DNA of 52,215 nt. Origin: Microcaldota archaeon (GTDB lineage: Archaea; Micrarchaeota; Micrarchaeia; Micrarchaeales; Micrarchaeaceae). The DNA lies in assembly GCA_021801355.1 (NCBI GenBank), contig JAJYYB010000012.1:1-52215 (forward strand), written 5' to 3'. A program made the position numbers and the translations under genes. Under the pieces are notes generated by a model. It made no database searches and was not told the origin of the DNA. It saw only the letters and a list, made by a program, of their open reading frames with translations. Below are positions 22,720 to 41,829 of this stretch, in pieces. Every line of letters begins with the position of its first letter. Position 1 is the first letter of the stretch.

Positions 22720-23301
22720 TCAGTGAGTCGACTTTATTGCCAGTGTTCCTATCTTGGCGAAGTTCGTCGGTTGAGCGCACGGCCCGGTTGTGCAGTAGCT
22801 TACCCATATGTAGCCATAGAACGGCGTCCCGATAACTGGGTCTATAGGCATGCCACCTGCTTCAGTCATAGTTGGTGTATTACCGAATGTCACAGTGTAT
22901 ATCTGGCCGGACTGCAATGTTCCTATTGGAACCGTGTTGCCTGATACGTCGGTAGATCCACCGCCAGTCATATTAAGTGGTACTCCTATTACGTTGGCCG
23001 AGCCAGATGTTAAGGTCTCTCCCTCCTGTGCTACGAAAACGTTGACCGAGTAGAACGTCTGCCCGGTGTTCTGACCGAACTGGAACGTTATATTAGACCC
23101 GCTAGACGTAGCAGAAAATACCGGACTGGCGCATATGAACCCTGCCTGCGCGATGCAAGCCTGCGGTGTCCCGCCTGTGCCGAACACTCCCAGCTCGAAC
23201 AATGCTGCCAGAACCACTGCGATTATCAAGATGGCCCATCCGTAGGTCATCAGGTACTCCATAGCGCTCTGTGCCTTTAGCGTCTTTTTATTGTGTATCA
23301 T
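22720..23301 (-). CDS. Class III signal peptide pilin-like protein, copy 1
   Basis: 193 residues. The N-terminus, with basic residues then AQSAMEYLMTYGWAILIIAVV, is a class III (type IV pilin-like) signal peptide: cleavage just before QSAMEYL leaves a hydrophobic assembly helix. The rest is a small beta-rich, Ser/Thr/Gly-rich domain with two early Cys (ACIAQAGFIC) and a late pair (SYCTTGPC), likely disulfides outside the cell. It should be exported, cut by an EppA/FlaK-like peptidase and assembled into a filament, though no assembly ATPase is in the window. Copy 2 (24387-24965) is identical over about the first 125 residues. The same N-terminal module recurs in the gene at 33934. Confidence 0.85.
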   Translation of the reverse strand: MIHNKKTLKAQSAMEYLMTYGWAILIIAVVLAALFELGVFGTGGTPQACIAQAGFICASPVFSATSSGSNITFQFGQNTGQTFYSVNVFVAQEGETLTSGSANVIGVPLNMTGGGSTDVSGNTVPIGTLQSGQIYTVTFGNTPTMTEAGGMPIDPVIGTPFYGYIWVSYCTTGPCAQPTNFAKIGTLAIKSTH

Positions 23302-23547
23302 AGATACCCCTTATATTCTATAATTCTTACAGACTGGCAATAATATATAGCTTTCCATAAAAGCGGCTTCATCCCATAAATACTTGCTATCGATTTTCTG
23401 ATTCGATGTCGAGGAAGCGAAAATTCTGTGCCATGGATGGCGTGTTGGGCACTTTGTACCACCGCGACAACATCCAAGAGTGATAGAAGCCGGTTGCGCG
23501 TCCATGCAATAACGTATCCACTACGTTTGAATGGCCAGAAACGGTCG

Positions 23548-24258
23548 TCACCGGTCGCACTTTATCCAGAATGGAAACCCAAGGCTCCTTGCAGTCCTGT
23601 CGTAGAGCAGTTGCTTGATGTTGTACGCGAGGATGCGCGGCGCAATCATGGTGTTCCTTGCCTTTATCCTGATGGTGCGCACATTGTTCCCGTACCCCAA
23701 TCTTTATGGCTGAGTTTACTGCCTCTATCACAGACCTCGTGTGATAGACTGCGTCGTAGATCTCCTTGCGCATCGTGGCCAACTGCACCATCCTCTTCCA
23801 CGCCCTTGAACCGCCCGCCTTCACCATCGTGTTCCTTTTCATGGAGAAGAATGGTTTGCCGTTCTTCTCCACAACGATGTCGCAGTTCTTCCTCGACAGA
23901 TATCCCGCGTCGGCCATTACTCTCAGGATCTCTTTGAGGTCGCGCAAGATGAAACCGAGATACCTCGAATCATTGCGGCTACACTTGGTTATACGGTATT
24001 CGACTACTGCATGTCAACGCAGTTCGACCGCAAGATGCAACTTCACGTTGTCCCTCCGCCTGTTCCTCCTGCCGATCCTTATGTCGTACCATGCACTGCT
24101 CGGCCTCAATCTTATCCCGGTGGAATCCACTACGATACTGCATCTCTTCCTCAACAGCTTCTTCCTATGGCTTATCGCTTTCCGTATTACTTGTCTTTAG
24201 GCGTCCATGGGACTCGCTGTGGCCTTCTTCCATTTATGGAAATCGGGAATGTTATATC
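23548..24258 (-). pseudogene. Degenerate IS5/IS4-superfamily DDE transposase
   Basis: The minus strand carries a broken DDE transposase. Reading left from about 24258 one frame gives a segment with the first catalytic Asp (IVVDSTGIRLR), WYDIRIGRRNRRRDNVKLH, a stop codon, then VMADAGYLSRKN (second Asp) and YHTRSVIEAVNSAIK (third acidic residue). Two in-frame stops are present. Near 23700 a frameshift moves the C-terminus (IRIKARNTMIAPRILAYNIK) to another frame, ending at 23548. No clean terminal inverted repeats were found. It sits exactly between the two pilin repeats and is surely inactive. Confidence 0.85.
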
Positions 24259-24386: not shown

Positions 24387-24965
24387 TCAGTGCGTCGACT
24401 TTATTGCCAGTGTTCCTACCTTAGCGAAGTTCGTCGGTTGAGCGCACGGCCCGGTTGTGCAGTAGCTTACCCATATGTAGCCATAGAACGCCGTCCCGAT
24501 AACTGGGTCTATAGGCATGCCACCTGCTTTAGTCATACTGTTAGCACCGAACGACACAGTGTATATCTGGCCGGACTGCAATGTTCCTATGGGAACCGAG
24601 TTGCCTGTTACGTCGGTAGATCCACCGCCAGTCATATTAAGTGGTACTCCTATTACGTTGGCCGAGCCAGATGTTAAGGTCTCTCCCTCCTGTGCTACGA
24701 AAACGTTGACCGAGTAGAACGTCTGCCCGGTGTTCTGACCGAACTGGAACGTTATATTAGACCCGCTAGACGTAGCAGAAAATACCGGACTGGCGCATAT
24801 GAACCCTGCCTGCGCGATGCAAGCCTGCGGTGTCCCGCCTGTGCCGAACACTCCCAGCTCGAACAATGCTGCCAGAACCACTGCGATTATCAAGATGGCC
24901 CATCCGTAGGTCATCAGGTACTCCATAGCGCTCTGTGCCTTTAGCGTCTTTTTATTGTGTATCAT
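24387..24965 (-). CDS. Class III signal peptide pilin-like protein, copy 2
   Basis: 192 residues. Signal peptide, hydrophobic helix and first about 125 residues equal those of copy 1. Differences lie in the C-terminal third: STDVTGNS in place of STDVSGNT, SFGANSMTKAGG in place of TFGNTPTMTEAGG, and single changes near the end. A one-codon length difference keeps the frame. The upstream minus-strand TATA-like stretch differs from that of copy 1 because the repeat ends at 25004, so the two copies may be expressed differently. Role as a filament or surface subunit is inferred from the signal peptide. Confidence 0.85.
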   Translation of the reverse strand: MIHNKKTLKAQSAMEYLMTYGWAILIIAVVLAALFELGVFGTGGTPQACIAQAGFICASPVFSATSSGSNITFQFGQNTGQTFYSVNVFVAQEGETLTSGSANVIGVPLNMTGGGSTDVTGNSVPIGTLQSGQIYTVSFGANSMTKAGGMPIDPVIGTAFYGYIWVSYCTTGPCAQPTNFAKVGTLAIKSTH

Positions 24966-30285: not shown

Positions 30286-30376
30286 ATGATCGCGCTCTTT
30301 GATTTTAATCTTATTGCTTCGATGGTGATTAAATATCTTTGCGCGCATTGGGGGATGTAGTATTATTTTATACGCT

Positions 30377-31657
30377 TCATGGACATCCAGTGCAATCGGT
30401 AATATTGGCGCCGTTGAAGTTGGCGCCAGATACGTCGGCGCCGGCAAGATCGGCGTAAGCGAGATCAGAATTGGCGAAATTGGAACCGACCAGGTCTGCG
30501 TTCACAAGGTTAGAGTACGCTAAATTTGAATTAGCAAGATTAGCTCCGGACAGGCTTATGCCTTCCATGTCGGAGTATTTCAATATGGCGCCCTGGAAAT
30601 TAGAGCCGGCCGCATCAACAGAGCCCTGCATGTCTGTACCATTAAGATTCGCGCCCTGGAAATTCACGCCAGTCATTATGGCACCATCCAAGTTTGTCAA
30701 GCTCAAGTTAGCATCAGCGAGGTTTGAACCTGCCAGATTGACGTTGGCCATATCTGAACTGAAGATAGTACCGAAAACTATGTTGTCCCCTGTCATAGTA
30801 TAACCGACTAGGTTGCAGTACTCGGCCTTCACCCTTGCAAGGTTCTGGCCGCCTTCATTTGGTATCTGCGGACAATTCTGGTAGATTATCCCGTTATAAG
30901 TCGCGGTTATGGTACAGTTCTTTGTAACGATGATTGATTCCTCCTCGCTTGTCATGCCACATCCAGATATCGTATTGAAAGTGTAGGAGAACCCATTGAC
31001 TTCCAATGTAGGGTCATAAAGTATAGCGTGGCTCGTACCATACGGGTAAGAGCGCAACAATGGGAGCTGACTGTATGCGAAATTGGAACCGTCTATCTCC
31101 AGCACATTCCCTTTAGCCGATGGGTAGTGGGCTATAGTGTAGTTAACGTAGACTTCTGTTGGCGATTCTTGGGCGCTCACCTTGGCGTTACCGACATAAA
31201 GATAGGAACTCGAAGATGGACAGATGGTGCCTATTTGGCTGGCTGCCTTGGCGCAGTAATCGCCTGCTATATGGAATGTTGCAGTGTATACTTGACCTTG
31301 TTCTATCTTGGAGGAGAAGTTGGCTAGGCAGTAGACGATCTGGCCAGAAGTAGACAGTGATGGGTTGCATGATCCGTCCGTGCTTTGGACGTAGTTAACA
31401 GTCGCGCTGAAGTTGCTCACATTCACCAGCCCGGGTTCTACGTTAGTGGCTAGTACCACGAGCTGCGATCCGGAGCCAAACGCATAATATTCGATGTCAA
31501 TGCAATTGAAGCCGCTATAGAATGAGCATTCCAAGGGCAATGAAGATTGTGGTATCGAAACGAAGAATATCAGTATTGCTAATACTACAACTATGATAAG
31601 GAAAACGGCATCGTAGGTCAATAGAAACTCTATAGCGCTCTGGCCTTTTTTATCCAT
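30377..31657 (-). CDS. Class III signal peptide protein with C-terminal pentapeptide-repeat domain
   Basis: 426 residues. The N-terminus KKGQSAIEFLLTYDAVFL is a type IV pilin-like (class III) signal peptide. A Cys-rich beta domain (residues 40 to about 300) follows. Residues about 310-420 are pentapeptide repeats of the A(N/D)LxG type (e.g. NLAGSNLADANLSLTNLDGA), which fold as a right-handed quadrilateral beta-helix. It ends DCTGCP. A pilin-type anchor carrying a pentapeptide beta-helix suggests a filament-tip or surface adhesin, but that is inference. ATG 31657 is set by the TATA box at 31679-31688. Confidence 0.82.
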   Translation of the reverse strand: MDKKGQSAIEFLLTYDAVFLIIVVVLAILIFFVSIPQSSLPLECSFYSGFNCIDIEYYAFGSGSQLVVLATNVEPGLVNVSNFSATVNYVQSTDGSCNPSLSTSGQIVYCLANFSSKIEQGQVYTATFHIAGDYCAKAASQIGTICPSSSSYLYVGNAKVSAQESPTEVYVNYTIAHYPSAKGNVLEIDGSNFAYSQLPLLRSYPYGTSHAILYDPTLEVNGFSYTFNTISGCGMTSEEESIIVTKNCTITATYNGIIYQNCPQIPNEGGQNLARVKAEYCNLVGYTMTGDNIVFGTIFSSDMANVNLAGSNLADANLSLTNLDGAIMTGVNFQGANLNGTDMQGSVDAAGSNFQGAILKYSDMEGISLSGANLANSNLAYSNLVNADLVGSNFANSDLAYADLAGADVSGANFNGANITDCTGCP

Positions 31658-31678
31658 AATATAATTTTGGCTGAGAAG

Positions 31679-31688
31679 ATATATAATC
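31679..31688 (-). promoter_or_regulatory. TATA box for the pentapeptide-repeat pilin-like gene
   Basis: GATTATATAT on the minus strand, centred 26 bases before ATG 31657; leaderless start. Confidence 0.6.
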
Positions 31689-31711
31689 GCAGCATTATTG
31701 GAAATGACCTC

Positions 31712-32332
31712 ATCCGCGGGCTTTAGCCCGTGGTATCCGGCATGGCCACATGGCAAGTTTTTTCTGACCAGATATGTCTTGCCTCCTGATGTAATTCTTT
31801 ACAACATTTTCATCCCTTGGCCCAACACCCCCCGTTGCTGTATCCGGCACTCCAGAAATTTCCGTGGCCGGTACATCGATCTGTGGTTTGGGATCTCCCT
31901 GAATACCTCATGAGAAGAAAATCCTTTCAACAATTGGACAGCGAAAGAAACCGACATTGTATTAGGTATGGAAACCTCCATGTGCGTATGGGCGTAGTCT
32001 TCACCAAATGACAATTATTTTATGATCATTTTGTATCTCTTGGCAACGTCATAAAATGCACAGCGTATTGTATCTATAGTTTTTGTTTTCCGAACATTTT
32101 GTACCTGTATTTTGTCACAAAGACAAGGTGCTCAGTTGTATTGGTGGCCAAAGCCATTGGCCGTTTAGTTTTTATTTGGCGCATTCGCCACGCTATTCAT
32201 AGACCCACATTTCGGCAGAATTGCAGCGCAAAAATTTATGCGCTGCGCTGCCGTTAACGGATATTTAGATAGGAAGTGATAGATGCGTTGCTGCGGGCAA
32301 TTCGTCCGCGACTTAAAAGTCGTGGTATACTT
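31712..32332 (-). mobile_element. IS200/IS605-family relic
   Basis: Two look-alike imperfect palindromes in the same orientation bound a decayed tnpA. At about 31712-31736 is TCCGCGGGCT-TT-AGCCCGTGGTA and at about 32309-32331 TCCGCGACTT-AA-AAGTCGTGGTA: different stems, same flanks and geometry, as expected of the subterminal hairpins recognised by a Y1 transposase. A further perfect 8-bp hairpin with an 8-base loop lies at 32223-32246, upstream of tnpA, where IS200 elements often carry a leader hairpin. No tnpB was found inside. Confidence 0.7.
31799..32175 (-). pseudogene. tnpA: Degenerate Y1 (HUH-type) transposase TnpA
   Basis: Minus-strand fragments in shifting frames recall IS200/IS605 TnpA: TTEHLVFVTKYRYKMFGKQ, then after a frameshift IRCAFYDVAKRYKMIIK, a stop, and EDYAHTHMEVSIPNT with the HTH form of the HUH motif, followed by VQLLKGFSSHEVFREIP. 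The distal part with the catalytic Tyr is not clearly readable. Stops and frameshifts make it inactive. Confidence 0.75.
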
Positions 32333-32586
32333 GCCACTTCAAATTATTCTGGCCTTGCAGCTCTTGCCGCCGGGTAGGAGGAATTAACATAGTAGTTCCA
32401 GCTACGGTTTTCCGCCCAATCCTTTGAATATCCGGATGCCATTCCCTATTGTAACATGGTTTATCATGAACCAGAACTCGTCAATCAACCCCGCTTTTAT
32501 ACGGGATACCACTAATTCCGATCCGCCCGCCTTGCCTAAAGCACCTAGGCGCTAGAAAATTACGCCATGCTTAAATTGCAGTAGAA
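32333..32586. other. Non-coding stretch beyond the IS relic
   Basis: No gene-like frame, RNA gene or strong repeat seen. It lies between the IS200/IS605 relic and the 3' end of the secreted-protein gene at 32587 and may be further decayed insertion sequence. Confidence 0.3.
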
Positions 32587-33801
32587 TCAACTTGCAGTAA
32601 CCGTGACGGAAGCCTGCGCACCGGAATTGCCTGTTACGGTTATCTGGTATTGCGACCCAGACTTAGGCTTCGCTATAAGGGTCCCGGAATTGTAAGTCAG
32701 CATGCTACTATAGCTAAAGGTGCTTGTCTGGCCTGCCATGATTGTGGCACCGCTGCCCTGAAAGTCCTCGTTTCCTGTAGTCACCGCGGTCATTGAACCT
32801 CCGGGCGCCACAACAAAATCGATCTCGCCGTTGGCCTCTATGTTCAGCCCTAGCTTGAGCAGTGCGCTTGTATTCAGCCCTATTGAGCCTCTGCTTCTAC
32901 CTGCCCCAAGGGCGCCCGTTATCCCAGCAACTGCAGAGGCATTGGAGCTAGCGGAGGATGATGCTTGGACTGCCTGATTGCCGCTCATGAACACGTTGTT
33001 CAGTGTAACTGCAGCGTTTGAATTGTCCTTCACAGTCACATATATAGTCGTAACATTTCCATTTACGCTTATGTTGGCAGATGTTATCGTGATATTGGGT
33101 GCTGCGGCCGCGAGGCTGGCTTTGGCGTTGGCGTTCAGACTTACTTGCGCGCCCACTCCGGCGCTGGCCTGTGCGCTTATATTTTTAGCTATGGCAGCTT
33201 TGGCTGAAGTCGATGCCATAACGTAAGCTGTCGAATTCTGGTTATAAACTGCGCTTACAGTAGGCGCTACATCTATGATGACCCCTGCTTTTGTGCTCTG
33301 ATTAATCTTTGTAGCGCTCGTTATGTTTATGATCACTTGATCGTTTGGCACTTGGACAACATACTTCGTCCCATTAACCACTATGTATGCTGAAGTGATG
33401 ATAAACTTGGTGGCGGCTATTGTAGCGTTCGGGGTGATGTTCGCATAGCCTATCACTTTGCTGGTGCCGTTTTGCACTGCAGTGAGGTTCACCGAGCCGC
33501 TTGCCATAGAATTAGCGTTAACCCAGTCCGAGCCTGAAGGCCCTGATTGCTGTACCTGCAAGGATGAATAAGATATTACCATTGCCTGCGTTCCGACTGG
33601 GACATGCCCCGGATCGGTCACAACAACAGGCGTTGAAGTGTACTTCCCTGATGAGCTCTGCAGGATAGTTGTTTGCTGTTGAGTAGTGTTTGGTACACCG
33701 ACCGGTGCGCCTGTCTTAGAACCAAGGCCGCTTAGTAGCGTCGCCGCTGCGACTATTATAACAAGTACAACTATTATCCCTATTATTGATTTGCTATTCA
33801 T
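32587..33801 (-). CDS. Secreted or membrane-anchored Ala/Ser/Thr-rich protein
   Basis: 404 residues. A single N-terminal hydrophobic segment (about residues 4-26) acts as signal anchor or signal peptide. The rest is low in charge, rich in Ala, Ser, Thr, Val and Asn, with many N-x-S/T sequons and no cysteine. Beta-strand-like stretches such as NITITSANISVNGNVTTIYV suggest an Ig-like fold in the second half; the middle has Ala-rich helical stretches. I do not recognise the family. ATG 33801 is preferred to 33825. Surface location is inferred from the leader and its pilin-like neighbours. Confidence 0.75.
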   Translation of the reverse strand: MNSKSIIGIIVVLVIIVAAATLLSGLGSKTGAPVGVPNTTQQQTTILQSSSGKYTSTPVVVTDPGHVPVGTQAMVISYSSLQVQQSGPSGSDWVNANSMASGSVNLTAVQNGTSKVIGYANITPNATIAATKFIITSAYIVVNGTKYVVQVPNDQVIINITSATKINQSTKAGVIIDVAPTVSAVYNQNSTAYVMASTSAKAAIAKNISAQASAGVGAQVSLNANAKASLAAAAPNITITSANISVNGNVTTIYVTVKDNSNAAVTLNNVFMSGNQAVQASSSASSNASAVAGITGALGAGRSRGSIGLNTSALLKLGLNIEANGEIDFVVAPGGSMTAVTTGNEDFQGSGATIMAGQTSTFSYSSMLTYNSGTLIAKPKSGSQYQITVTGNSGAQASVTVTAS

Positions 33802-33933
33802 ATCCACACGCTTAAAAAGTAACACATGCTAAATATTTAATGGTTTTTATATCGATACCCGCAGTAATAATTATAAACTCTTACTGAGCTACACTATCTG
33901 ATATTATTGCATTGCAGTCGTGGTGCATACATT

Positions 33934-35565
33934 ATGCGCAATTATCCCAAGAAGATTATCAAGGCCCAGTCATCGATGGAGTACCTGATGACATATGGAT
34001 GGGTCATCCTTATAATCGCGATAGTAGTTGGCGTGCTTGTCGCACTCGGCCTTTTCAACGGCTATGCAGCCACACCCAACGGCTGCTTCCCACAACAGGG
34101 TTTCACATGCTCGAATCTTGTTTACACATCTAATGGGATAACGGCGACGATCAGCCAGGATTCCGGCCAGAACTACTACGATGCATTGGTCTTCGTGGCA
34201 TCTGAAGACGAGAACATCGGGTCCGGTGGTCTCCCTGTCAACTTCTCCGAATCGAACACCGTGAACATGACACCGATAGGCACTATCCCTCCTTCCGGCA
34301 CCGTGACGTTCAATTTCAATCACACTTCAGCCGGCGACATACCTACTGCGAAAATACCTGTCGGGACGGAGTTCACTGGTTACATCTGGATCGCTTACTG
34401 CCTCAGCCCTGTCTGCAGCGGCCCTACGGCGTACTCTAAAGTAGCAACTATAGCGACGAAATATACCGGTTCGCTGGGCTTTAGTGGTCAGAGCGCCGCG
34501 CTGCCGACGCCTGTACTCGACATAGCACCCGGATATATCCCGATAACGCTGGACCAGGGCGGTAACCAAATCAATTATATGTTCCAGCAGAACGTAACGT
34601 TCAGCCCGTCACAATACAATTCCCACGAGTCGCCTGACCTCGGCAATATAAGGTTTTATGCCGGTGCGCCCAGCATATCTAACGCCCTTACCTCATGGTG
34701 CCAATCCGGATGCACCAATGATTCCTCTAATGCAGAATTCTGGATAAAGATGCCAACTGGCGAGACACCAGGCGAGCAGATATACATGTATTTCGAGCCG
34801 AACACGACATATGAATATGATGGTGTATACGCAGGCGAGGCCCCGCAACTGAGCAGCACGTATGCACAGTACGACAACGGCCAGAGCATATTCGACTTTT
34901 ATGACAACTTCGCCGGCCAATATACATATTCAAATGATTCTGGCACTACTACTGGCACACCAGTGCCTGGCTTCTTTGCCGTGAACGCAGTAGCCGCAGT
35001 GGATAATGGGCTGGTGCTATCAAATGCTACGGGTGCAGCTAACACTAGCGGCATGCTGTTCGCAACAACTTCTAAGTACGGGGTTGGCACTACCTTCGAT
35101 GCTGAGGTTGTAGGTTTACCATATAGCGATACCGTAAATATCGGATACCAGGAGCTGCCGTACAATCCTGGTCCGTCGCCCCAGTATGGTACATTCATAC
35201 GACAGGCTTGCGGCTCCACGTACCCAGACCAGATAAACTACAGCGGCGAGCCTAATGGCTGCGGAAGCATAGAACGCTTCGCTAGCAGTGAGAACTTACC
35301 TGGCGTTTACAGTGTTGCAATCACCTCAAGCAAGGAATCCTATCAGCAATTGAATGGTTCTGGCATGCTATACCAACCTGCGGATACGAGTTTCCCAGAA
35401 CCTCCGGAAAGCCCCGGCAGTTACCCTACATATGTAGGGTTCAGCTCATCGCACGGAGGCATAATATTGCCGGTTCAATGGGTCCGCATAAGGAATGCCC
35501 CGCCATTGATAAGCGGAGTGCCGCAAATGCCTTCCGCTACGCTCGGTAATTTTGTACCTACATGA
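33934..35565 (+). CDS. Class III signal peptide pilin module fused to a DUF2341-like domain
   Basis: 543 residues. The N-terminal about 180 residues parallel the pilin genes at 22720 and 24387: signal peptide AQSSMEYLMTYGWVILIIA, an early Cys pair (GCFPQQGFTC), IGTIPPSGTVTF, and GYIWIAYCLSPVC near the end of the module. The next about 370 residues begin with a DUF2341-like concanavalin-fold unit (PLDLGNIRFY-type segment, SNAEFWIKMP, IYMYFEPN) and a second lectin-like half (FYDNFAGQ onward). This is a pilin-anchored candidate adhesin. ATG 33934 is preferred to the upstream frame from 33907. It ends 5 bases before the next gene. Confidence 0.83.
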   Translation: MRNYPKKIIKAQSSMEYLMTYGWVILIIAIVVGVLVALGLFNGYAATPNGCFPQQGFTCSNLVYTSNGITATISQDSGQNYYDALVFVASEDENIGSGGLPVNFSESNTVNMTPIGTIPPSGTVTFNFNHTSAGDIPTAKIPVGTEFTGYIWIAYCLSPVCSGPTAYSKVATIATKYTGSLGFSGQSAALPTPVLDIAPGYIPITLDQGGNQINYMFQQNVTFSPSQYNSHESPDLGNIRFYAGAPSISNALTSWCQSGCTNDSSNAEFWIKMPTGETPGEQIYMYFEPNTTYEYDGVYAGEAPQLSSTYAQYDNGQSIFDFYDNFAGQYTYSNDSGTTTGTPVPGFFAVNAVAAVDNGLVLSNATGAANTSGMLFATTSKYGVGTTFDAEVVGLPYSDTVNIGYQELPYNPGPSPQYGTFIRQACGSTYPDQINYSGEPNGCGSIERFASSENLPGVYSVAITSSKESYQQLNGSGMLYQPADTSFPEPPESPGSYPTYVGFSSSHGGIILPVQWVRIRNAPPLISGVPQMPSATLGNFVPT

Positions 35566-35570
35566 AATGA

Positions 35571-36080
35571 ATGGTGCTTTGGATGAATACGCGTTTAGTT
35601 GCCTTAGTACTGCTGTTTTTAATATGCGTTGCAGCTGGTATAGTGTTGTTATATGGCAATTTCTTTTCGCATAGTGTAACAGCTTCAAACCAGTCTTCCA
35701 CTTCAATCAAAGTATTACCAAGGAATAACAACCAGGCGGAGTATACGAACTTCAATGTTGATATGATCCTGAACAGTACATATCTCGCAGTAAACAAATT
35801 TGCAGTCCTTGAGGAGTTGTCTGCGCTACCGCGCATGTATGTGAACTCTAGCAATGAAAACGTCTCCATTACACTCTCTGGCAGCAAAATCATGATTATT
35901 CAAGGATCAAAGGATAACATAAGCGTTACTATACCAAATAACGCAGTACTAGTTATACGTGCTGATAGTGCGAATATGTATGACACTGTTATAGCAACAG
36001 GAGGTTACATATACAATACCGCAATCCCAGAGGCTGGGGTGAATCTTGAACTGCATAATTCTACCCTGATATCTGTTTAG
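35571..36080 (+). CDS. Small membrane-anchored surface protein
   Basis: 169 residues. A strong N-terminal hydrophobic helix (about residues 8-30) is followed by a sequon-rich extracytoplasmic part. The region from about 95 to 165 has short beta-strand repeats (VSITLSGSKIMIIQG, ISVTIPNNAVLVIRA), possibly a small beta-solenoid. No family recognised. It starts 5 bases after the DUF2341-pilin gene, so the two are likely co-expressed and may act together. ATG at 35583 is an alternative start. Confidence 0.7.
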   Translation: MVLWMNTRLVALVLLFLICVAAGIVLLYGNFFSHSVTASNQSSTSIKVLPRNNNQAEYTNFNVDMILNSTYLAVNKFAVLEELSALPRMYVNSSNENVSITLSGSKIMIIQGSKDNISVTIPNNAVLVIRADSANMYDTVIATGGYIYNTAIPEAGVNLELHNSTLISV

Positions 36081-36536
36081 GGATTACTGTAAATATGGCG
36101 TCGGAAATCCCGTTCACTATCATAGTTAGGTAGTTCTCCAACCTCAACACTGAATGATTTTCATCTCGAAATACAAGTACATGTGCCAATAAGCCGCCTT
36201 TTTGGTCGCGTTAACCTGACTTTATCAGATAATTACAAGTGAAACGCGTTATCTCTAATAGTTATGTTCGATTTTTTAGTCATAACATGAGAATTGATGC
36301 CGTAGGATGGTTGCCAAGACATTGTAGCCCGTGAACCCAGGCGAACGCGTCGCGATATCTGGACCTGATGCGGTCTGGGAGCGTCGTAAATAACAAGCGC
36401 GTAAATCCATGCGACACATATGCCATATATGCTTGTGCCACCCGCAGCACATTGCGGCACATAGCGAACAGCAGATGCACTGGTTAACATTAGTGCCAGT
36501 GGAATGGGCGACTGCTGCGACCGTTACCGATGTGCT
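36081..36536. other. Intergenic region without a recognised gene
   Basis: 456 bases between convergent genes. Overlapping minus-strand frames at 36233-36490 and 36280-36480 are open but compositionally unconvincing and show no known motif. The segment could be decayed insertion sequence. Nothing firm can be assigned. Confidence 0.3.
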
Positions 36537-37577
36537 TCAGTCCTTGAACACGTACGCCGAGACCACTCCTGCAGTGTCAAACGAATAGATGCACCACGGG
36601 CATATGGACGCGCCCACAGAAACCTCGGACACATTGTACGTACCAGGATCCTGTATGCAGGCCGCATCGAAGGCAGAGGCCTGATACCAGTTTTGCTGGT
36701 TGTCAAGCATAACGCATCCGGTTGGCAGGTTTATTGTGTCGCAGTTTGCCCAGCCGCAGGAGCCAACTATGGCCACAAAGCTGTTGGGCTTGGTCACTGT
36801 GTAGGTCAGATTGGTGTCGTACACCGCAGGGTGCGTTTGTGAGTTCGGATTGTTGGCCGAGCTGAATATCGTCGCGTCGCTGACAGGTACATTCAGCCCT
36901 ATGCCAGCTATGGCAGATGGCCAGGAGAACGCAAGCGAGCAGGACCCTATGTTAGAGGCCTGATAACCTGTTGCAGAGCACCTGCTGCCTCCTGCACAGC
37001 CGAAGAAGTAACCTGATTCGACATTGCTAAACGAGGTCGATTCTATGCTCGGATAGCCGCTTCCGCAGGCAAATATATAGGTAGAATCGCCTGGTGGCAG
37101 GACCGTGCTTGGGCTCTGCGAGGAGTTATGTGTGTACTGTATGTTGAATACTGTGAGGTTCACTGGATTTGAATATTGCACTATAACACTCTTCGATAAC
37201 CTAGCGCTAACGTAAACGCTTACTGAGTTGTTCGTGGTGAAATTGCAGGTGTTTACGCGTATGCCGCCGCAGCCGCTTATGGTTTGGTTGCCTGCGTAGA
37301 ACGTGTAGTTTATGGGTTCATGCCCTTTAGATAATATAGAACTGTTACTCAAAGTCGCAGTAAGTACGGTCTTGAGGCTGCTCATGCTTGATGTATTGGT
37401 TGCCGTAAGTGACAGGTTTATCTTTTCTGAGAAGACCCGCTGCTGGTTTATTACGGCCACGCTAGGCAGAGTCACGTTGTTGCTCACCGCCCAAGTCGTT
37501 CCTACCACTATTGTGCATGCCAATATTGTTAGAACAAACAGTTTTGCTGCATTCATCCTTGCGTTCGCATCGCTCAT
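36537..37577 (-). CDS. Secreted cysteine-rich protein
   Basis: 346 residues. An N-terminal hydrophobic segment (about residues 12-31) looks like a signal peptide. The mature part has numerous sequons and many cysteines in close pairs (GCGGIRVNTC, GCAGGSRC, GSCGWANC), implying several disulfides. A late SICPWCIYS is a CxxC in an exported protein. Family not recognised. The start ATG 37577 lies about 29 bases after a minus-strand TATA box (37601-37612). Its cysteine load fits the nearby CxxC redox proteins as possible partners (inference). Confidence 0.75.
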   Translation of the reverse strand: MSDANARMNAAKLFVLTILACTIVVGTTWAVSNNVTLPSVAVINQQRVFSEKINLSLTATNTSSMSSLKTVLTATLSNSSILSKGHEPINYTFYAGNQTISGCGGIRVNTCNFTTNNSVSVYVSARLSKSVIVQYSNPVNLTVFNIQYTHNSSQSPSTVLPPGDSTYIFACGSGYPSIESTSFSNVESGYFFGCAGGSRCSATGYQASNIGSCSLAFSWPSAIAGIGLNVPVSDATIFSSANNPNSQTHPAVYDTNLTYTVTKPNSFVAIVGSCGWANCDTINLPTGCVMLDNQQNWYQASAFDAACIQDPGTYNVSEVSVGASICPWCIYSFDTAGVVSAYVFKD

Positions 37578-37967
37578 TGCACCACGTTGAATATTTACTC
37601 TATTTATATAATCCGCAATGAATAAATAACTACCTAATGGGAGCCCGCCGAGGCCGTTGAAAATTTGTAAACCCTTACACTTCCACTATTCCGAAAGGGT
37701 CTACTTTTTTATCTTCGATACAAAGAACGGGGCGGAAGGCGACCGTTCACAAAGTTCCTGCAGAATAGGCGTCTAATAAATGTTAGAGGGGCCGCTGCCT
37801 TGCAGTGGCAGCCCCTGGAGATCGACCAAACTGTCATGAGAGAACGTTTTTCAGGCTCAACTCAACAGATTCGAATAAGGGCTACGATAGGATTTTCAAC
37901 GACCTCAGAACTATCCATCCAGCGACAGCATTTTATATGTGTAACTACCATATAATTACAGCGACAG
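37578..37967. other. Intergenic region with a GC-rich hairpin
   Basis: 390 bases between the secreted Cys-rich protein and hicB. It holds the minus-strand TATA box at 37601-37612, a hairpin at 37787-37816 (two 5-bp stem segments around a 3-base bulge), and two TATA-like stretches before hicB (37931-37939 and 37949-37957). No ORF with recognisable features was seen. A small RNA is possible but unsupported. Confidence 0.35.
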
Positions 37968-37976
37968 ATGAATTTT

Positions 37977-38177
37977 ATGCGATTTAGGGTATTGATAGAG
38001 AGAGACGAAGACGGCATCTATGTAGGCAAGGTTCCCGACCTTCCGGGATGCGCCACCGAAGGCAGGACCAAGAAGGAACTTATGAAGAACATGAAGGAGG
38101 CCATACAAGCTTATATGGAGTCATTGAAGAAGCACGGCGATCCTATTCCTGTAGAATCGGTGCAGATAAGTGTCTAG
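37977..38177 (+). CDS. hicB: HicB-family antitoxin
   Basis: 66 residues, the partial RNase H-like fold of HicB: FRVLIERDEDGIYVGKVPDLPGCATEG is the hallmark opening, followed by the amphipathic helix ELMKNMKEAIQAYMESLKK. No DNA-binding domain is attached. It should bind and neutralise HicA. ATG 37977 is preferred because a TATA-like stretch at 37949-37957 lies about 25 bases upstream; ATG 37968 adds three residues. It overlaps hicA by 8 bases. Confidence 0.9.
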   Translation: MRFRVLIERDEDGIYVGKVPDLPGCATEGRTKKELMKNMKEAIQAYMESLKKHGDPIPVESVQISV

Positions 38178-38427
38178 GCTTATACCGCTTGATTATGACA
38201 AGGTCATAAAGGCTCTTTCTAAAGTAGGCTATGTCGTGAACCATCAGAAAGGAAGCCATATCGTAATGCACCTTGACAGGAAGGACAGGTACACCAAATT
38301 ATTCGGAGACAGGAAGCCGGAATACATGATAGTAGTCCCAGCCCATAGGCCGATAGGCAGGGGCATGGTAAGGACTATCATGAGCGAGGCCGACTTGTCA
38401 GTTGACGAGTTCAATAGCTTGGCATAA
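38170..38427 (+). CDS. hicA: HicA-family mRNA interferase toxin
   Basis: 85 residues with the double-stranded-RNA-binding-like fold of HicA. VIKALSKVGYVVNHQKGSHIVM carries the catalytic His in the G-S-H motif, and IVVPAHRPIGRGMVRTI is the conserved second half. It is expected to cleave mRNA until bound by HicB. The start is GTG at 38170 inside hicB, so translation is coupled. Gene order is antitoxin first. The pair marks the left edge of the accessory island. Confidence 0.9.
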   Translation: MSRLIPLDYDKVIKALSKVGYVVNHQKGSHIVMHLDRKDRYTKLFGDRKPEYMIVVPAHRPIGRGMVRTIMSEADLSVDEFNSLA

Positions 38428-38815
38428 TCCTCGCTTTGAGTCTTTCGGCTTTCTCCACAGAGAATGCCTCATCCACAGCCTTGTAAAGCTCGGCCTTCCG
38501 CGTGTTTATGTAGGTCATGGTGGTGCTGGGATCGCTATGCCGTGCAAAGCGGCTGGATAGCACCATATCCCCATTGCTCTGCCTGGCGAAGCTGTGGTTA
38601 TCGCATAGTGGCGCAGGCTGTGAGTAGTCAGCCTATGGAGCTACCTTGGCGTCCTTCCGTACGTCTCCTCGCTCTGGTCGTAGACATCGTCCAGCTTGGC
38701 GGCTTGGACGTACTCCCTGAACACCTTGCGGACGTAGTTCTTCTCCAAGTAAGGCTCCCCCTTAAGGCCATGCCCAAGCTCCGAGAAGAACACGAACCCG
38801 CGTTTTTGCGATTTT
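38411..38815 (-). pseudogene. Tyrosine recombinase (integrase) C-terminal fragment
   Basis: On the minus strand, frames joined across one stop (near 38640) and one frameshift (near 38600) encode a tyrosine-recombinase catalytic C-terminus: YLEKNYVRKVFREYV, LTTHSLRHYAIT (the HxxR box) and FARHSDPSTTMTYINTRKAELY with the nucleophile Tyr. The N-terminal part and the first catalytic Arg are missing. The stop at 38411 lies inside the 3' end of hicA on the other strand. It lies just beyond a tRNA-Asp fragment, as expected of an integrase next to its att site. Confidence 0.82.
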
Positions 38816-38869
38816 CCTGCTTGGCTGCTTTGCTGCGAACAAACCCAGCGCTACGGCGTGAATAGAAGA

Positions 38870-38917
38870 CGCCTTGGTCGGGATTCGAACCTGAGTCGCA
38901 AGCTAGCACGGCGCCCT
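38870..38917 (-). repeat. tRNA-Asp 3' fragment (att-like)
   Basis: On the minus strand these 48 bases parallel the intact tRNA-Asp at 41757-41829 from anticodon stem to 3' end: same length between the GCC and GCTTG anticodon-stem strands, then GACTC, GGTTCGAATCCCG and CCAAGGCG. The anticodon loop and one T-stem base have changed, and no 5' half is present. About 95 bases beyond it also resemble the sequence beyond the intact tRNA, ending in a shared AAAACGCGGGTTCG. This is the expected far-end scar of integration into tRNA-Asp. Confidence 0.7.
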
Positions 38918-39078
38918 TGCCGCCGTAAAACCCCGAATTCCTAGCTCCTTTGTTTCTTTGCGTGCTACGCATAGCGAACCTCGATTTTCATAGCTACTTA
39001 GCAACCCCGAATTTATATAAGCCTCGGGTGCGATTTCATCCGGATATTCGAACCCAGAAAGTGAGCACAGATAATGTA

Positions 39079-39429
39079 TTATCTGCTTTTGTACCAGAAC
39101 CTCCGTTCGTATGCTTTATGATTCATCCATTCGAGCAATATGGCTACTATCTCTATTTGATTCCCAGCCAATGTATACAATAATCGCCAGCCATTTCTAA
39201 GGTCGTATTTTCTAAGGTTGTCTATGCCGTATTTCTTAACGTACTCCTTAGGCCATAAATGCCTCTCTATCTTAACCCCACGTAGTGGATTTTCTTTAAG
39301 TGCATTAATTGCTCCTTCTATCTCGTTTGCTAACTGCTTATCCTCAAACTTACCAGACTTCAATGCATCAAATGCGTCGCGAAGTTTAGCATCAACAAAA
39401 GCGACCCTCTGGATTCTATTGCCACTCAT
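39079..39429 (-). CDS. RelE/ParE-like toxin
   Basis: 116 residues. The central and C-terminal segments follow the archaeal RelE-like pattern: ALKENPLRGVKIERHLWPKEY, then NLRKYDLRNGWRLLYTLAGNQIEIVAIL and a terminal EWMNHKAYERRF. Such proteins cleave mRNA at the ribosome; which basic residues are catalytic cannot be assigned here. The start ATG overlaps the stop of the upstream winged-helix gene by four bases (ATGA), the usual antitoxin-toxin arrangement. Its AT-rich composition matches the island. Confidence 0.8.
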   Translation of the reverse strand: MSGNRIQRVAFVDAKLRDAFDALKSGKFEDKQLANEIEGAINALKENPLRGVKIERHLWPKEYVKKYGIDNLRKYDLRNGWRLLYTLAGNQIEIVAILLEWMNHKAYERRFWYKSR

Positions 39430-39716
39430 TTAATCACTAGACTCTGATTCTTTAGATGTTCTATCAGTTTGGGATTCCAAATCCAGGTAACTGTCTTATC
39501 TTTTTCAATGATTATTTTGCTAGAGTACTCTAAGTATCTCACAACCGTAGTAAATGTGGTCCACATTACTTTTTTTGGCAATAGTCTCCATATTTCAGTG
39601 AGCGTTTTTTCGCTTTTATACTTGTATAGCGCAGCTTCTATCATTAGTATAGTGTCTAGGCGTGGAGATCTGTCTATCCGCCGTTGCTTAAATTTTAAAA
39701 TTGTTTGCTGGTACAT
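39426..39716 (-). CDS. Winged-helix DNA-binding protein, candidate antitoxin
   Basis: 96 residues. A predicted winged-helix core (residues about 20-85: LDTILMIEAALYKYKSEKTLTEIWRLLP and VRYLEYSSKIIIEKDKTVTWIW, a strand-turn-strand wing). It is directly upstream of and overlapping the RelE-like gene, so it probably serves as antitoxin and autorepressor, though it is not one of the common RelB/AbrB/MetJ-type antitoxins. ATG 39716 is chosen; TTG 39725 is the alternative. Two overlapping palindromes immediately upstream are likely its operators. Confidence 0.65.
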   Translation of the reverse strand: MYQQTILKFKQRRIDRSPRLDTILMIEAALYKYKSEKTLTEIWRLLPKKVMWTTFTTVVRYLEYSSKIIIEKDKTVTWIWNPKLIEHLKNQSLVIK

Positions 39717-39752
39717 ATATATCAACTGATATATTTATCAATTGATAAATAT
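39717..39752. promoter_or_regulatory. Two overlapping palindromic operators before the winged-helix/RelE operon
   Basis: An imperfect palindrome at 39717-39734 (core TATCAACTGATA) overlaps a perfect 22-base palindrome at 39731-39752 (core TATCAATTGATA). Their centres are 16 bases apart. Both cover the TATA region of the operon and end right at the start codon at 39716, so bound protein would block transcription. Likely ligand: the winged-helix protein. Confidence 0.7.
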
Positions 39753-39807
39753 TAATAACTTTCTAGTGCTAGTAGGTTAACTAACCTAAATTTATCCTCA
39801 AGAGGTA

Positions 39808-39872
39808 TGCTCCGATCGGGATTTGAACCAGAGTTCCGGCCTTGAGAGGGCCGTGTCCTTGACCGGACTAGC
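39808..39872 (-). repeat. tRNA-Glu(CTC) 3' fragment (att-like)
   Basis: The minus strand reads like tRNA-Glu from the D-loop on: AGTCCGGTCAA, a perfect anticodon stem CGGCC/GGCCG around loop CTCTCAA (anticodon CTC), T-loop GGTTCAAATCC and acceptor strand TCGGAGC with discriminator A. The 5' acceptor strand and D-stem partner are missing; foreign sequence TTTTATGGCAGC replaces them, and the T stem has a mismatch. It cannot fold as a complete tRNA and looks like an integration scar. The intact tRNA-Glu is not in the window. Confidence 0.7.
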
Positions 39873-39913
39873 TGCCATAAAACAAGCATTATTTTTTCTA
39901 GCCATTCCCAAGC

Positions 39914-39968
39914 GCCTAACTTTTAATTTTCGGGTATCCGAACCCCCCTTTTCAATTAGAAGTTAGGC
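39914..39968. other. Long three-tier hairpin
   Basis: A perfect 9-bp outer stem (39914-39922 with 39960-39968), an inner 5-bp stem after a one-base bulge on each side (39924-39928 with 39954-39958) and an apical 4-bp GGGT/ACCC stem (39932-39935 with 39942-39945). A minus-strand TATA-like stretch at 39974-39984 would start transcription near 39952, inside it. Structured RNA, recombination site or terminator are all possible. Confidence 0.45.
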
Positions 39969-40019
39969 AATCCATATTTATAAGCACACCGGGTTCACTT
40001 TTGTTTTGGATTCGAACCT

Positions 40020-40128
40020 GTCGAAAAAGCCAATAACTGCGAAGCAAAACGGCTTTGAGATTTGGTGAGAATGTAAAAAGTAGAACACAGTTGAAAAAGC
40101 CACTAACTACGAAGTAGAACGGCTTTGA
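40020..40128 (-). terminator. Tandem covarying terminator-like hairpins
   Basis: Two 39-base copies, 70 bases apart (about 40020-40058 and 40090-40128). Each has an outer 6-bp stem AAAGCC/GGCTTT and an inner stem around the triloop. The inner stem changes by compensation (CTAC/GTAG in one, TGC/GCA in the other), so the pairing is conserved. On the minus strand each ends in GGCTTTTTC, a terminator-like T-run, starting 15 bases after the stop of the P-loop gene. Confidence 0.55.
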
Positions 40129-40142
40129 AACTAGAAATATAG

Positions 40143-40592
40143 TTATATAAAAAATCTGTGTGCTTTCAGCGTATTAAAAAGCTTCAGGCCATCGTATGCT
40201 TTCTTATCAATCCTGTCAAACTCGTAACCTTTATTATTTTTGATATGCGCTATCGCCCCGTCTATTCTTATCTTTTCTTCATTTGCGTCTGTGTTCACAT
40301 TTGTAGTAAATGGCATTAACACTACAAAATAATTTAAATTAAAAATAGCAGCAATCTCCTCCAATTTCTCTAAATCAGCATCTATTTGATCATTTACTTT
40401 ACTCCTATTCCTTTCTTGAGGCGATGAATTGATTGTGAGTATTGGTGCTCCGTTAATCGAACAAAAACTAATCTGTGAGTTACCTGTTAGCTTAAAACCA
40501 TTCGTGTCTTTAACCAAGTCTTCTATCGCGGATGTCTTGCCACTGTCACCCTCTCCAACCAATGCAAGGAACTTTTTTATCAATTCATGCAC
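40143..40592 (-). CDS. Small P-loop NTPase-like protein
   Basis: 149 residues. A Walker A motif VGEGDSGKTS (residues 12-21) follows the opening helix. A hydrophobic strand FVVLMPF near residue 97 could carry a Walker B-like site, but no clear DE pair follows it. Family unknown; the size suits a minimal GTPase- or ParA-like fold, not a full one. It overlaps the upstream gene by 8 bases and has an AGGTG Shine-Dalgarno-like motif just before its ATG, so it is the last gene of a three-gene operon. Composition is AT-rich, unlike the chromosome around it. Confidence 0.6.
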   Translation of the reverse strand: MHELIKKFLALVGEGDSGKTSAIEDLVKDTNGFKLTGNSQISFCSINGAPILTINSSPQERNRSKVNDQIDADLEKLEEIAAIFNLNYFVVLMPFTTNVNTDANEEKIRIDGAIAHIKNNKGYEFDRIDKKAYDGLKLFNTLKAHRFFI

Positions 40593-40824
40593 CTGTTTTG
40601 AGTAGCCTACTAAAAAACTTCTCTACATCAGAACCATTTTCGCAATGGGTAATATCATTCTTTTTACCTTTTTTGTCGCCCCTATCGTAAGCCAGCCTAA
40701 TTATGCCATCTGCACTTTTCCAAACTCTCAGTCCACATAAATAGACCGTTTCCCCCTCACTTTTATAGACATTTAGTTTTGGCATCTCGACCACACCGTT
40801 TAGGTTATTCCCCTTTACCTTCAT
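40585..40824 (-). CDS. Hypothetical protein of the island operon
   Basis: 79 residues, charged, with short predicted strands (TVYLCGLRVWKSADGIIRLAYDR) and two Cys. No family recognised. It overlaps the preceding membrane-protein gene by 20 bases and the following P-loop gene by 8 bases, an arrangement that argues for a real, co-translated gene. ATG 40785 is an alternative start that removes the upstream overlap. Confidence 0.5.
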   Translation of the reverse strand: MKVKGNNLNGVVEMPKLNVYKSEGETVYLCGLRVWKSADGIIRLAYDRGDKKGKKNDITHCENGSDVEKFFSRLLKTGA

Positions 40825-41056
40825 TATACTTCCATATACCTGCTGCTACTAAAAGTGCAAGTACATCATCAATCGGATCCATAATAAAACCTACAATAAA
40901 GGTTATTAGATTTTCTATCGGTGTTAAAATGGCCTGCTCCAACCATGCAGCTATATTTGAAAACAATGAGCTTGCGCCTAGCGCCTGCAAGAAGTAGTAT
41001 GAGATTATAACGCTGACTAACAACCCAAATAAAGCATCAATATCATTGCTGTTCAT
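40805..41056 (-). CDS. Small membrane protein of the island operon
   Basis: 83 residues with two to three hydrophobic helices (about residues 8-30, 35-50 and 52-75) and a short charged tail. It is the first gene of the operon. ATG 41056 is chosen because a TATA box TTATAAATAT (about 41080-41090) lies some 28 bases upstream, so the mRNA is leaderless; the longer frame from 41074 would overlap the TATA. Function unknown; holin-like or membrane-anchor roles cannot be told apart. Confidence 0.6.
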   Translation of the reverse strand: MNSNDIDALFGLLVSVIISYYFLQALGASSLFSNIAAWLEQAILTPIENLITFIVGFIMDPIDDVLALLVAAGIWKYNEGKGE

Positions 41057-41091
41057 GTTTTCTTCTTTATACATTTAATAATATTTATAAT

Positions 41092-41649
41092 TTAGGTATT
41101 CCTTGCACGCCCCCTCGCTAGTTCTTCGTTAAGCCTTTCGTAAGCCTCGTTTATCTCCTTCATCCTAGCCTCCGCATCCCTGCTCTTGTTCACGTCCGGG
41201 TGGTACCTCAGCGCCATCCTGCGGTAGGCTGCCTTTACCTCCTGCGGGGTGGCCGTTTCCGGCACCCCTAGCACCTCGTAGCACCAAGCCAGGCTGCCCT
41301 TCGACGAGCCTTTAGGCTTGGCATCCTCCTTCCTTTGGTTGCGCTTTTGCTCCTGTCTGACTCTTTCAAAATCTTGGAACATCTTTTGTTGCCGCGTAAA
41401 GGTGCGGTACTCCCACCAGACCTCGAATGCTCCCAAGCCTACGAACATGGCCAGAAGGCTCAGGACGTAAAGCGGGCGTATGGCTTGGTTTAGCTGCATG
41501 GGGGCTAGGTACTGGGTGACAAGTAGCAGCGTGAACATGGTGAAGTTGAAAACATAGCTACTGAACAGCGAGTAGATAAAAGCCAGAAAGGCGTAGATTA
41601 CGGTTAGGAATATAACCAGCACGGCAAAGGCATAGAGTATTATGAACAA
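41092..41649 (-). CDS. Membrane-anchored J-domain (DnaJ-like) protein
   Basis: 185 residues. The N-terminal part has three to four hydrophobic helices (about residues 2-90), a basic linker follows, and residues about 122-180 form a J-domain: CYEVLGVPETATPQEVKAAYRRMALRYHPDVNKS with the essential HPD tripeptide, then EINEAYERL. It would recruit and stimulate a DnaK-type Hsp70 at the membrane; no dnaK is in the window. The start is TTG 41649, and the frame stays open upstream almost to tRNA-Asp without ATG or GTG. That upstream stretch resembles the sequence beside the broken integrase. Confidence 0.8.
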   Translation of the reverse strand: MFIILYAFAVLVIFLTVIYAFLAFIYSLFSSYVFNFTMFTLLLVTQYLAPMQLNQAIRPLYVLSLLAMFVGLGAFEVWWEYRTFTRQQKMFQDFERVRQEQKRNQRKEDAKPKGSSKGSLAWCYEVLGVPETATPQEVKAAYRRMALRYHPDVNKSRDAEARMKEINEAYERLNEELARGRARNT

Positions 41650-41756
41650 GGCCGCTATGAACTCGCCGAAAACGAACCCCGAACCCGCGTTTTCGCGCGT
41701 TTTCCCGATGCTCGGCTCATCGGAGACGAACCCGGCGCTGCGACGACAAAAAATGG

Positions 41757-41829
41757 CGCCTTGGCCGGGATTCGAACCCGGGTCACAAGCGTGACAGGCT
41801 CGTATGCTGGACCGCTACACTACCAAGGC
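41757..41829 (-). tRNA. tRNA-Asp(GTC)
   Basis: 73 bases on the minus strand. Acceptor GCCTTGG/CCAAGGC is perfect, with discriminator G as required for Asp. The anticodon stem CGAGC/GCTTG encloses the loop CTGTCAC (anticodon GTC). The T arm is CCGGG-TTCGAAT-CCCGG. No intron; CCA is not encoded. It forms the right boundary of the integrated island, and a divergent CDF gene lies beyond its upstream region. Confidence 0.95.

Follow-up and report, generated by a model that had tools for sequence, protein, structure and literature searches.

DPANN archaea are believed to live on other cells, and the means by which they select a host and keep hold of it are still sought. The locus studied here raises this question in a particular form: what are two nearby genes, each joining a class III (prepilin) signal to a large and unusual C-terminal domain, likely to do for such an archaeon, and how far do they stand alone in its genome? 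The window, that is, the whole stretch of 52,215 nucleotides that was analysed (contig JAJYYB010000012.1 of assembly GCA_021801355.1), belongs to a genome of 1,073,858 bases in 21 contigs (numbered with C) that is 96% complete. All named relatives of this genome were Candidatus Micrarchaeota MAGs, and the guess of a DPANN-type organism in the preliminary description, which was made from the letters alone, was right.

Both ORFs were present as described there, each beginning with a class III signal. Modular pilin 1 (426 aa; 30377–31657, minus strand, ATG at 31657) consists, in order, of the class III signal and helix, a diverged pilin module (31250–31657, minus strand; profile E 1.5e-21), a middle domain and a pentapeptide beta-helix. 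Its start reads MDKKGQSAIEF, with cleavage predicted between MDKKG and QSAIEF, which makes Gln6 of MDKKGQ the mature N-terminus. Modular pilin 2 (543 aa; 33934–35565, plus strand, ATG at 33934; carrying KAQSSMEYLMTYGW) has its predicted cleavage site between KA and QSSMEY, and its class III signal is followed by a pilin module, a DUF2341 domain and a ConA-like lobe. Its module (33949–34470, plus strand) was 84–87% identical at the amino-acid level to four modules of the same genome and, as had been proposed, is common to the short pilins of the window (43% over 191 aa, E 6e-42). The preliminary description had wrongly left the pentapeptide protein out of this sharing, since that protein carries the diverged copy. 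In both window proteins, and in their headed siblings, a pilin moiety is followed by a large separate functional module, the arrangement that defines modular pilins.

Alignment-based AlphaFold2 models of both full proteins were of moderate confidence (mean pLDDT 69.8 for modular pilin 2 and 65.9 for modular pilin 1), and each contained a long N-terminal helix (residues 14–37 in modular pilin 2 and 8–34 in modular pilin 1) followed by a beta domain. The head of modular pilin 1 (aa 265–426; 30380–30865, minus strand) was recognized both by Pfam (pentapeptide repeats, E 1.3e-25) and in the model, where it was predicted as a quadrilateral beta-helix whose ten-residue blocks were mostly at pLDDT 75–91 and which matched 2j8k with a VIA Z of 28.6 and an rmsd of 1.4 over 164 residues. 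It ends in CTGCP, a motif that in the alignment is conserved in both full-length homologues, which come from two other genera (45% identity in G005 and 39% in G015). The middle domain (aa 166–261) was poorly predicted. In modular pilin 2, the DUF2341-like N-lobe of the head (aa 200–319; 34531–34890, plus strand) was assigned from Pfam and the model together, its DUF2341 match (E 2.4e-4, 21.9 bits) lying below the curated cut-off of 23.4 bits; this cut-off was passed at two other loci of the same genome and by several siblings, with 30.5 and 45.0 bits, for example. The second lobe (aa about 320–523; 34891–35502, plus strand; VIA Z 13.4) was modelled as a ConA-like jelly roll over residues 321–522, with residues 409–453 poorly predicted, and matched galactocerebrosidase 3zr5_A with an rmsd of 3.5 over 170 aligned residues. 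The VIA structure matches spanned mainly residues 270–524 of modular pilin 2 and 259–426 of modular pilin 1. Both heads modelled as had been claimed, and the head of modular pilin 2 is predicted to have a ConA-like fold with a putative sugar-binding role. For the module itself, comparison with curated pilins gave no Pfam model that names it and one member with a sub-threshold Pilin_N match, and the PDB gave a weak pilin match only (8fj5_A, E 0.31).

The phenomenon is much larger than the two genes first noticed. A profile search with the module found 37 ORFs or fragments in the genome, together 46,974 nt or 4.4% of its length, of which 20 were headed and 6 were uncut and headless. The heads comprised DUF2341 types (some with LamG or InlB repeats), glycine-rich and InlB-like types, a repeat type with QYGLPSG-like motifs, and the pentapeptide type, of which modular pilin 1 was the one such protein found in the whole genome. 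The module subfamily of modular pilin 1 was also joined to a DUF2341-type head elsewhere in this genome (C5:22769) and, as judged by eye from the sequence pattern, in nine other genomes (L189–L197). The proposal that one pilin module is reused with different heads was therefore strongly supported, by these module ORFs and several head types and by the phylogenetic conflict between modules and heads that is described below. Of 74 headed members from the five genomes of the genus, 43 had a Ser/Thr-rich stretch behind the module; both window proteins lacked it. Two truncated or interrupted module copies (C12:92040–92258 and C13:96698–96922) could be remnants or donors of recombination.

The cleavage context was kept in every member sampled: Gln at +1 and Glu or Asp at +5 were found in all 114 members with a signal region in the stretches taken from the five genus genomes, and the residue at +5 was Glu in 110 of them. 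These 114 members, like the 74 headed ones, include near-duplicates between G003 and G004, and G001–G004 were sampled as stretches around matches. G003 and G004 were 100% identical over kilobases at shared loci and so were rejected as independent strains and treated as one population. Heads that failed to fold as claimed and a lost cleavage context had been named beforehand as grounds for giving up the original proposal, and neither was encountered. One module copy has no signal and instead makes up the C-terminal end of another membrane-anchored protein (C3:141745–143283, L053:2746–4281), which indicates that the beta domain also occurs outside pilins.

The genome encodes what a type IV pilin needs, namely a prepilin peptidase, an assembly ATPase and a platform protein. 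The assembly ATPase, for which a search had been recommended, is a T2SSE ATPase on C21 that lies beside two T2SSF platform proteins and a coiled-coil-like protein, and the prepilin peptidase was a single match in the genome (C11:16492). A second T2SSE-type ATPase (L060:4653–5969) was solitary, without adjoining platform genes. The window also contains a short headless pilin (22720–23301, minus strand) that has syntenic orthologues in G002 and G003/G004, and a second copy (24387–24965, minus strand) that is 95% identical to the first and arose by local duplication, with a remnant of an IS5-type transposase between them (23390–23947, minus strand). In G002 and G003/G004, the syntenic place holds a single copy, compared with two here, within a block conserved in these genomes. 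The short headless pilins are the strongest candidates for the role of structural pilin.

We consider it probable that these genes encode a repertoire of modular pilins in which heads recombine with bases, that these pilins are displayed via a type IV pilus and that they most likely act as adhesins. The architecture of a shared module, different heads and a pilus machinery is established at the level of sequence, as is the mosaicism. In the proposed mechanism, a constant mature module (helix 1 and beta domain, about 175 aa) would be cut by the single prepilin peptidase, after which the ATPase/TadC-type machine would insert it into the type IV pilus or attach it to the outside. The lectin-like, pentapeptide, glycine-rich, InlB-like and LamG heads at the C-terminus would do the work, most likely by adhering to a partner cell or surface; from this arrangement we infer incorporation into the filament, a location at its tip, adhesion, and a host or surface as the target. 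In this view, the set resembles a kit of changeable tools for holding on to partners or surfaces. The strongest competitor, which we regard as unlikely, is that the headed proteins are membrane-anchored, of an S-layer-like or pseudopilin type, and have kept the class III signal without ever entering a filament. The predominance of headed over uncut headless members would suit such anchored proteins, as tip adhesins are usually few, and so would the size of the heads, which reach 872 aa behind the matched module. However, the invariable Gln+1 and Glu/Asp+5 and the presence of peptidase, ATPase and platform genes argue against this reading.

To trace the history of this repertoire, we compared modules and heads in 31 of the 37 genes that make up the DUF2341 head component in the window's genus. 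Six genes were left out of the set: L170 and L184, which are a single gene in G003/G004; L041:4968 and L181:5491, tandem partners that have InlB repeats and a glycine-rich part; and L049:2270 and L213, whose modules are strongly diverged. The module tree required 6 species-label changes, compared with a shuffled mean of 15.5, and none of 200 shuffles was as low; the head tree of the same genes required 15, compared with 15.6 after shuffling, and 96 of 200 shuffles were as low. Modules thus cluster by species and heads do not. AU tests rejected the swapped groupings in both directions (4 of 4, p below 1e-5, with groups picked after the trees had been seen), and many modules of the window's genome were nearest to modules of that genome while their heads were nearest to heads of other species. 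Among 16 cross-species reciprocal-best head pairs, for which only head alignments of 200 aa or more were kept, both modules were closer to a home paralogue than to each other in 12; the head was more similar than the module in 7 pairs, and the module at least as similar in 9. The conflict between module and head was therefore clear mainly in the stronger cross-species pairs, such as C13:94973 and G001 (head 77%, module 53%), C4:1877 and G004 (head 70%, module 52%), and modular pilin 2 of the window and G001 (head 60%, module 50%).

Identity changed abruptly along the proteins. Modular pilin 2 and three paralogues of the same genome were 82–95% identical for about 160 residues and 10–60% thereafter, and these three paralogues were mutually 72–100% identical for about 320 residues and then mostly 15–50%. 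Three cross-species head pairs gave the mirror-image profile, with mostly 30–70% in the first part and 58–92% in the second. The shared DNA starts at the prepilin cleavage site, that is, at the mature N-terminal Gln: the module was 87.9% identical, and the leader together with 100 nt upstream was at background (60.8% vs 59.2% shuffled). At one locus, C21:151869, the upstream 2.6 kb including the module matched G004 at 74% and the downstream 1.5 kb at 80%, with the head unmatched; the head that G002 and G004 have in common there (80% DNA identity in part) differs from the one at C21:151869, which resembles a head at a different G001 locus (71% over 669 nt). Here the head was replaced in place, with flanks and module kept. 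At other loci, the exchange could be either conversion of the module or transfer of the head. Read from the aligned genes, these patterns demonstrate that the 5′ module and the 3′ head have recombined with respect to each other, so that modules are homogenized within species and heads are drawn from a cross-species pool. A diversity-generating retroelement target was rejected, as the reverse transcriptase PF00078 had no match in the 96% complete genome.

It is improbable that the likeness of modules within a genome instead reflects purifying selection and co-evolution with the pilus core, without recombination between module and head. Within-genome module dN was indeed low (0.03–0.10), but such selection would leave modules as saturated in dS as heads, whereas for the ten pairs that five genes of this genome form, dS was 0.30–0.74 for modules and 1.02 to saturated for the heads of the same genes. 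The many heads nearest to those of other species, the AU tests and the abrupt breakpoints likewise argue against it. There is a similarly small chance that the recombining heads are surface-displayed glycan-cutting enzymes and not adhesins. The ConA-like lobe resembles GH16 enzymes among others, but non-catalytic lectin-type domains match it equally well, and the GH16-type catalytic motif ExDx(x)E occurred in 1 of 74 heads; enzyme heads were accordingly set aside. Slightly less probable again is that the apparent mosaics arose as assembly chimeras where modules are repeated. Family ORFs do contain 9 of the 42 contig ends (expected 1.8, P 7e-5), but mis-joins within a genome cannot make modules, but not heads, cluster by species, and the locus with the syntenic head replacement is internal to a contig of 179 kb. 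As a tenth case, contig C4 starts within a DUF2341 head that is the continuation of the fragment at the start of C17. Because contig ends split family genes, the true gene number is slightly below the fragment count of 37, and the result is a warning that such MAGs tend to break at modular pilin genes.

Constant pilin parts with exchangeable C-terminal heads are familiar from the PilV shufflon of plasmid R64; the archaeal genes share this design and differ in being dispersed complete genes. Modular pilins are already known, and what is new here is the scale and the recombination history. In Streptococcus sanguinis, the part of the report drawn on here describes PilB and PilC as modular pilins with a class III signal and a pilin moiety onto which a large functional module is grafted C-terminally, the PilC module being a ConA-like lectin of shown activity (PMC9934059). 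That system, as presented there, comprises two modular pilins at one locus, whereas the present one comprises dozens genome-wide, with recombination between module and head and with lectins that are putative. DUF2341 has likewise been linked to archaeal pili, in that DUF2341 proteins at methanococcal type IV pilus loci were proposed as PilY-like tip adhesins; according to the portion of that work used here, these are large proteins encoded inside the pilus loci, whereas the present ones occur in many copies away from the assembly locus and carry a pilin module as a fusion (PMC4858521). Mosaicism of module and head in DPANN pilins was not found in a search of titles and abstract starts that covered few subscription journals.

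Related genomes had been suggested as a place to look for the module with other C-terminal domains, and there the search was productive. The module profile matched all of 60 genomes, with 25–43 matches per genome in the window's genus (n = 5) versus a median of 12 in the 55 others, and LamG_3 and Kelch-type heads were found. In genus g32 (G042 and G044), where the shared part is short and nearly invariant, most matches covered the helix only, in ORFs of about 290–300 aa, and G007 and G020 gave helix-only matches likewise, as judged by the match pattern. A LamG_3 lectin domain stood directly behind the helix in all 8 such g32 proteins scanned, and among 9 different sequences the helix part was 76–86% identical and the lectin centre 11–30%. 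In a further protein of that family, a Ser/Thr linker joins the module to a Kelch-type head. The many proteins at the G042 and G044 loci L239–L266 fuse a near-invariant pilin helix to a highly variable LamG lectin domain. Another micrarchaeon with many jelly-roll surface proteins is Mia14, for which an expansion of LamG-like proteins, some at pilus loci or genomic islands, and one FlaK-like peptidase were reported; the part of that account consulted makes no mention of a fusion to a pilin segment, such as is present in genus g32 (PMC5498576).

A more specific reading is possible, and we offer it tentatively: Micrarchaeota may maintain a combinatorial receptor-binding repertoire in which a species-specific constant pilin base is repeatedly joined to a cross-species pool of heads. 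The base would be kept uniform by gene conversion with tracts starting at the mature N-terminus, and part of the joining of heads would take place in islands associated with tRNAs; other genera would have exchanged the pilin body for a variable LamG lectin carried by a near-constant helix, a fusion present in dozens of copies. If this is true, a DPANN symbiont could change partner recognition, or escape recognition, with the pilus machine unchanged. The broader reading of recombining, pilus-displayed modular pilins already provides about 35 pilin-mounted heads with a recombination history as named, testable candidates for partner recognition, and such a repertoire may account for some of the expansion of lectin domains described for these genomes.

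Both modular pilins of the window lie in a variable island (30341–41753) delimited by interval comparison: the distance from the DUF929 gene to the cation-efflux gene is 11.6 kb here versus 1.2 and 1.7 kb, respectively, in G002 and G003, which represent two other species of the genus. A tRNA-Asp (gtc) gene stands at the island border (41754–41829, minus strand), and positions 38839–38903 are a partial repeat (78%) of 41726–41790, the 3′ end of this tRNA with its flank, which is possibly an old copy of the attachment site. The border and the repeat are as expected of an island inserted at a tRNA. Association with tRNAs was rejected as a general rule, an att-like repeat being found in the window island only and a tRNA in 6 of 21 other stretches. 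At the pentapeptide locus, no block of synteny conserved with G001 was found. The island also encodes a ParE-type toxin (39079–39429). A secreted protein at 32587–33801, which had no Pfam match, shares with the secreted protein at L060:151–1821 a motif, seen by eye, that resembles DPxHVPxGTQxxxIxYSSLxV, and the latter protein has, also by eye, an N-terminal winged-helix-like stretch.
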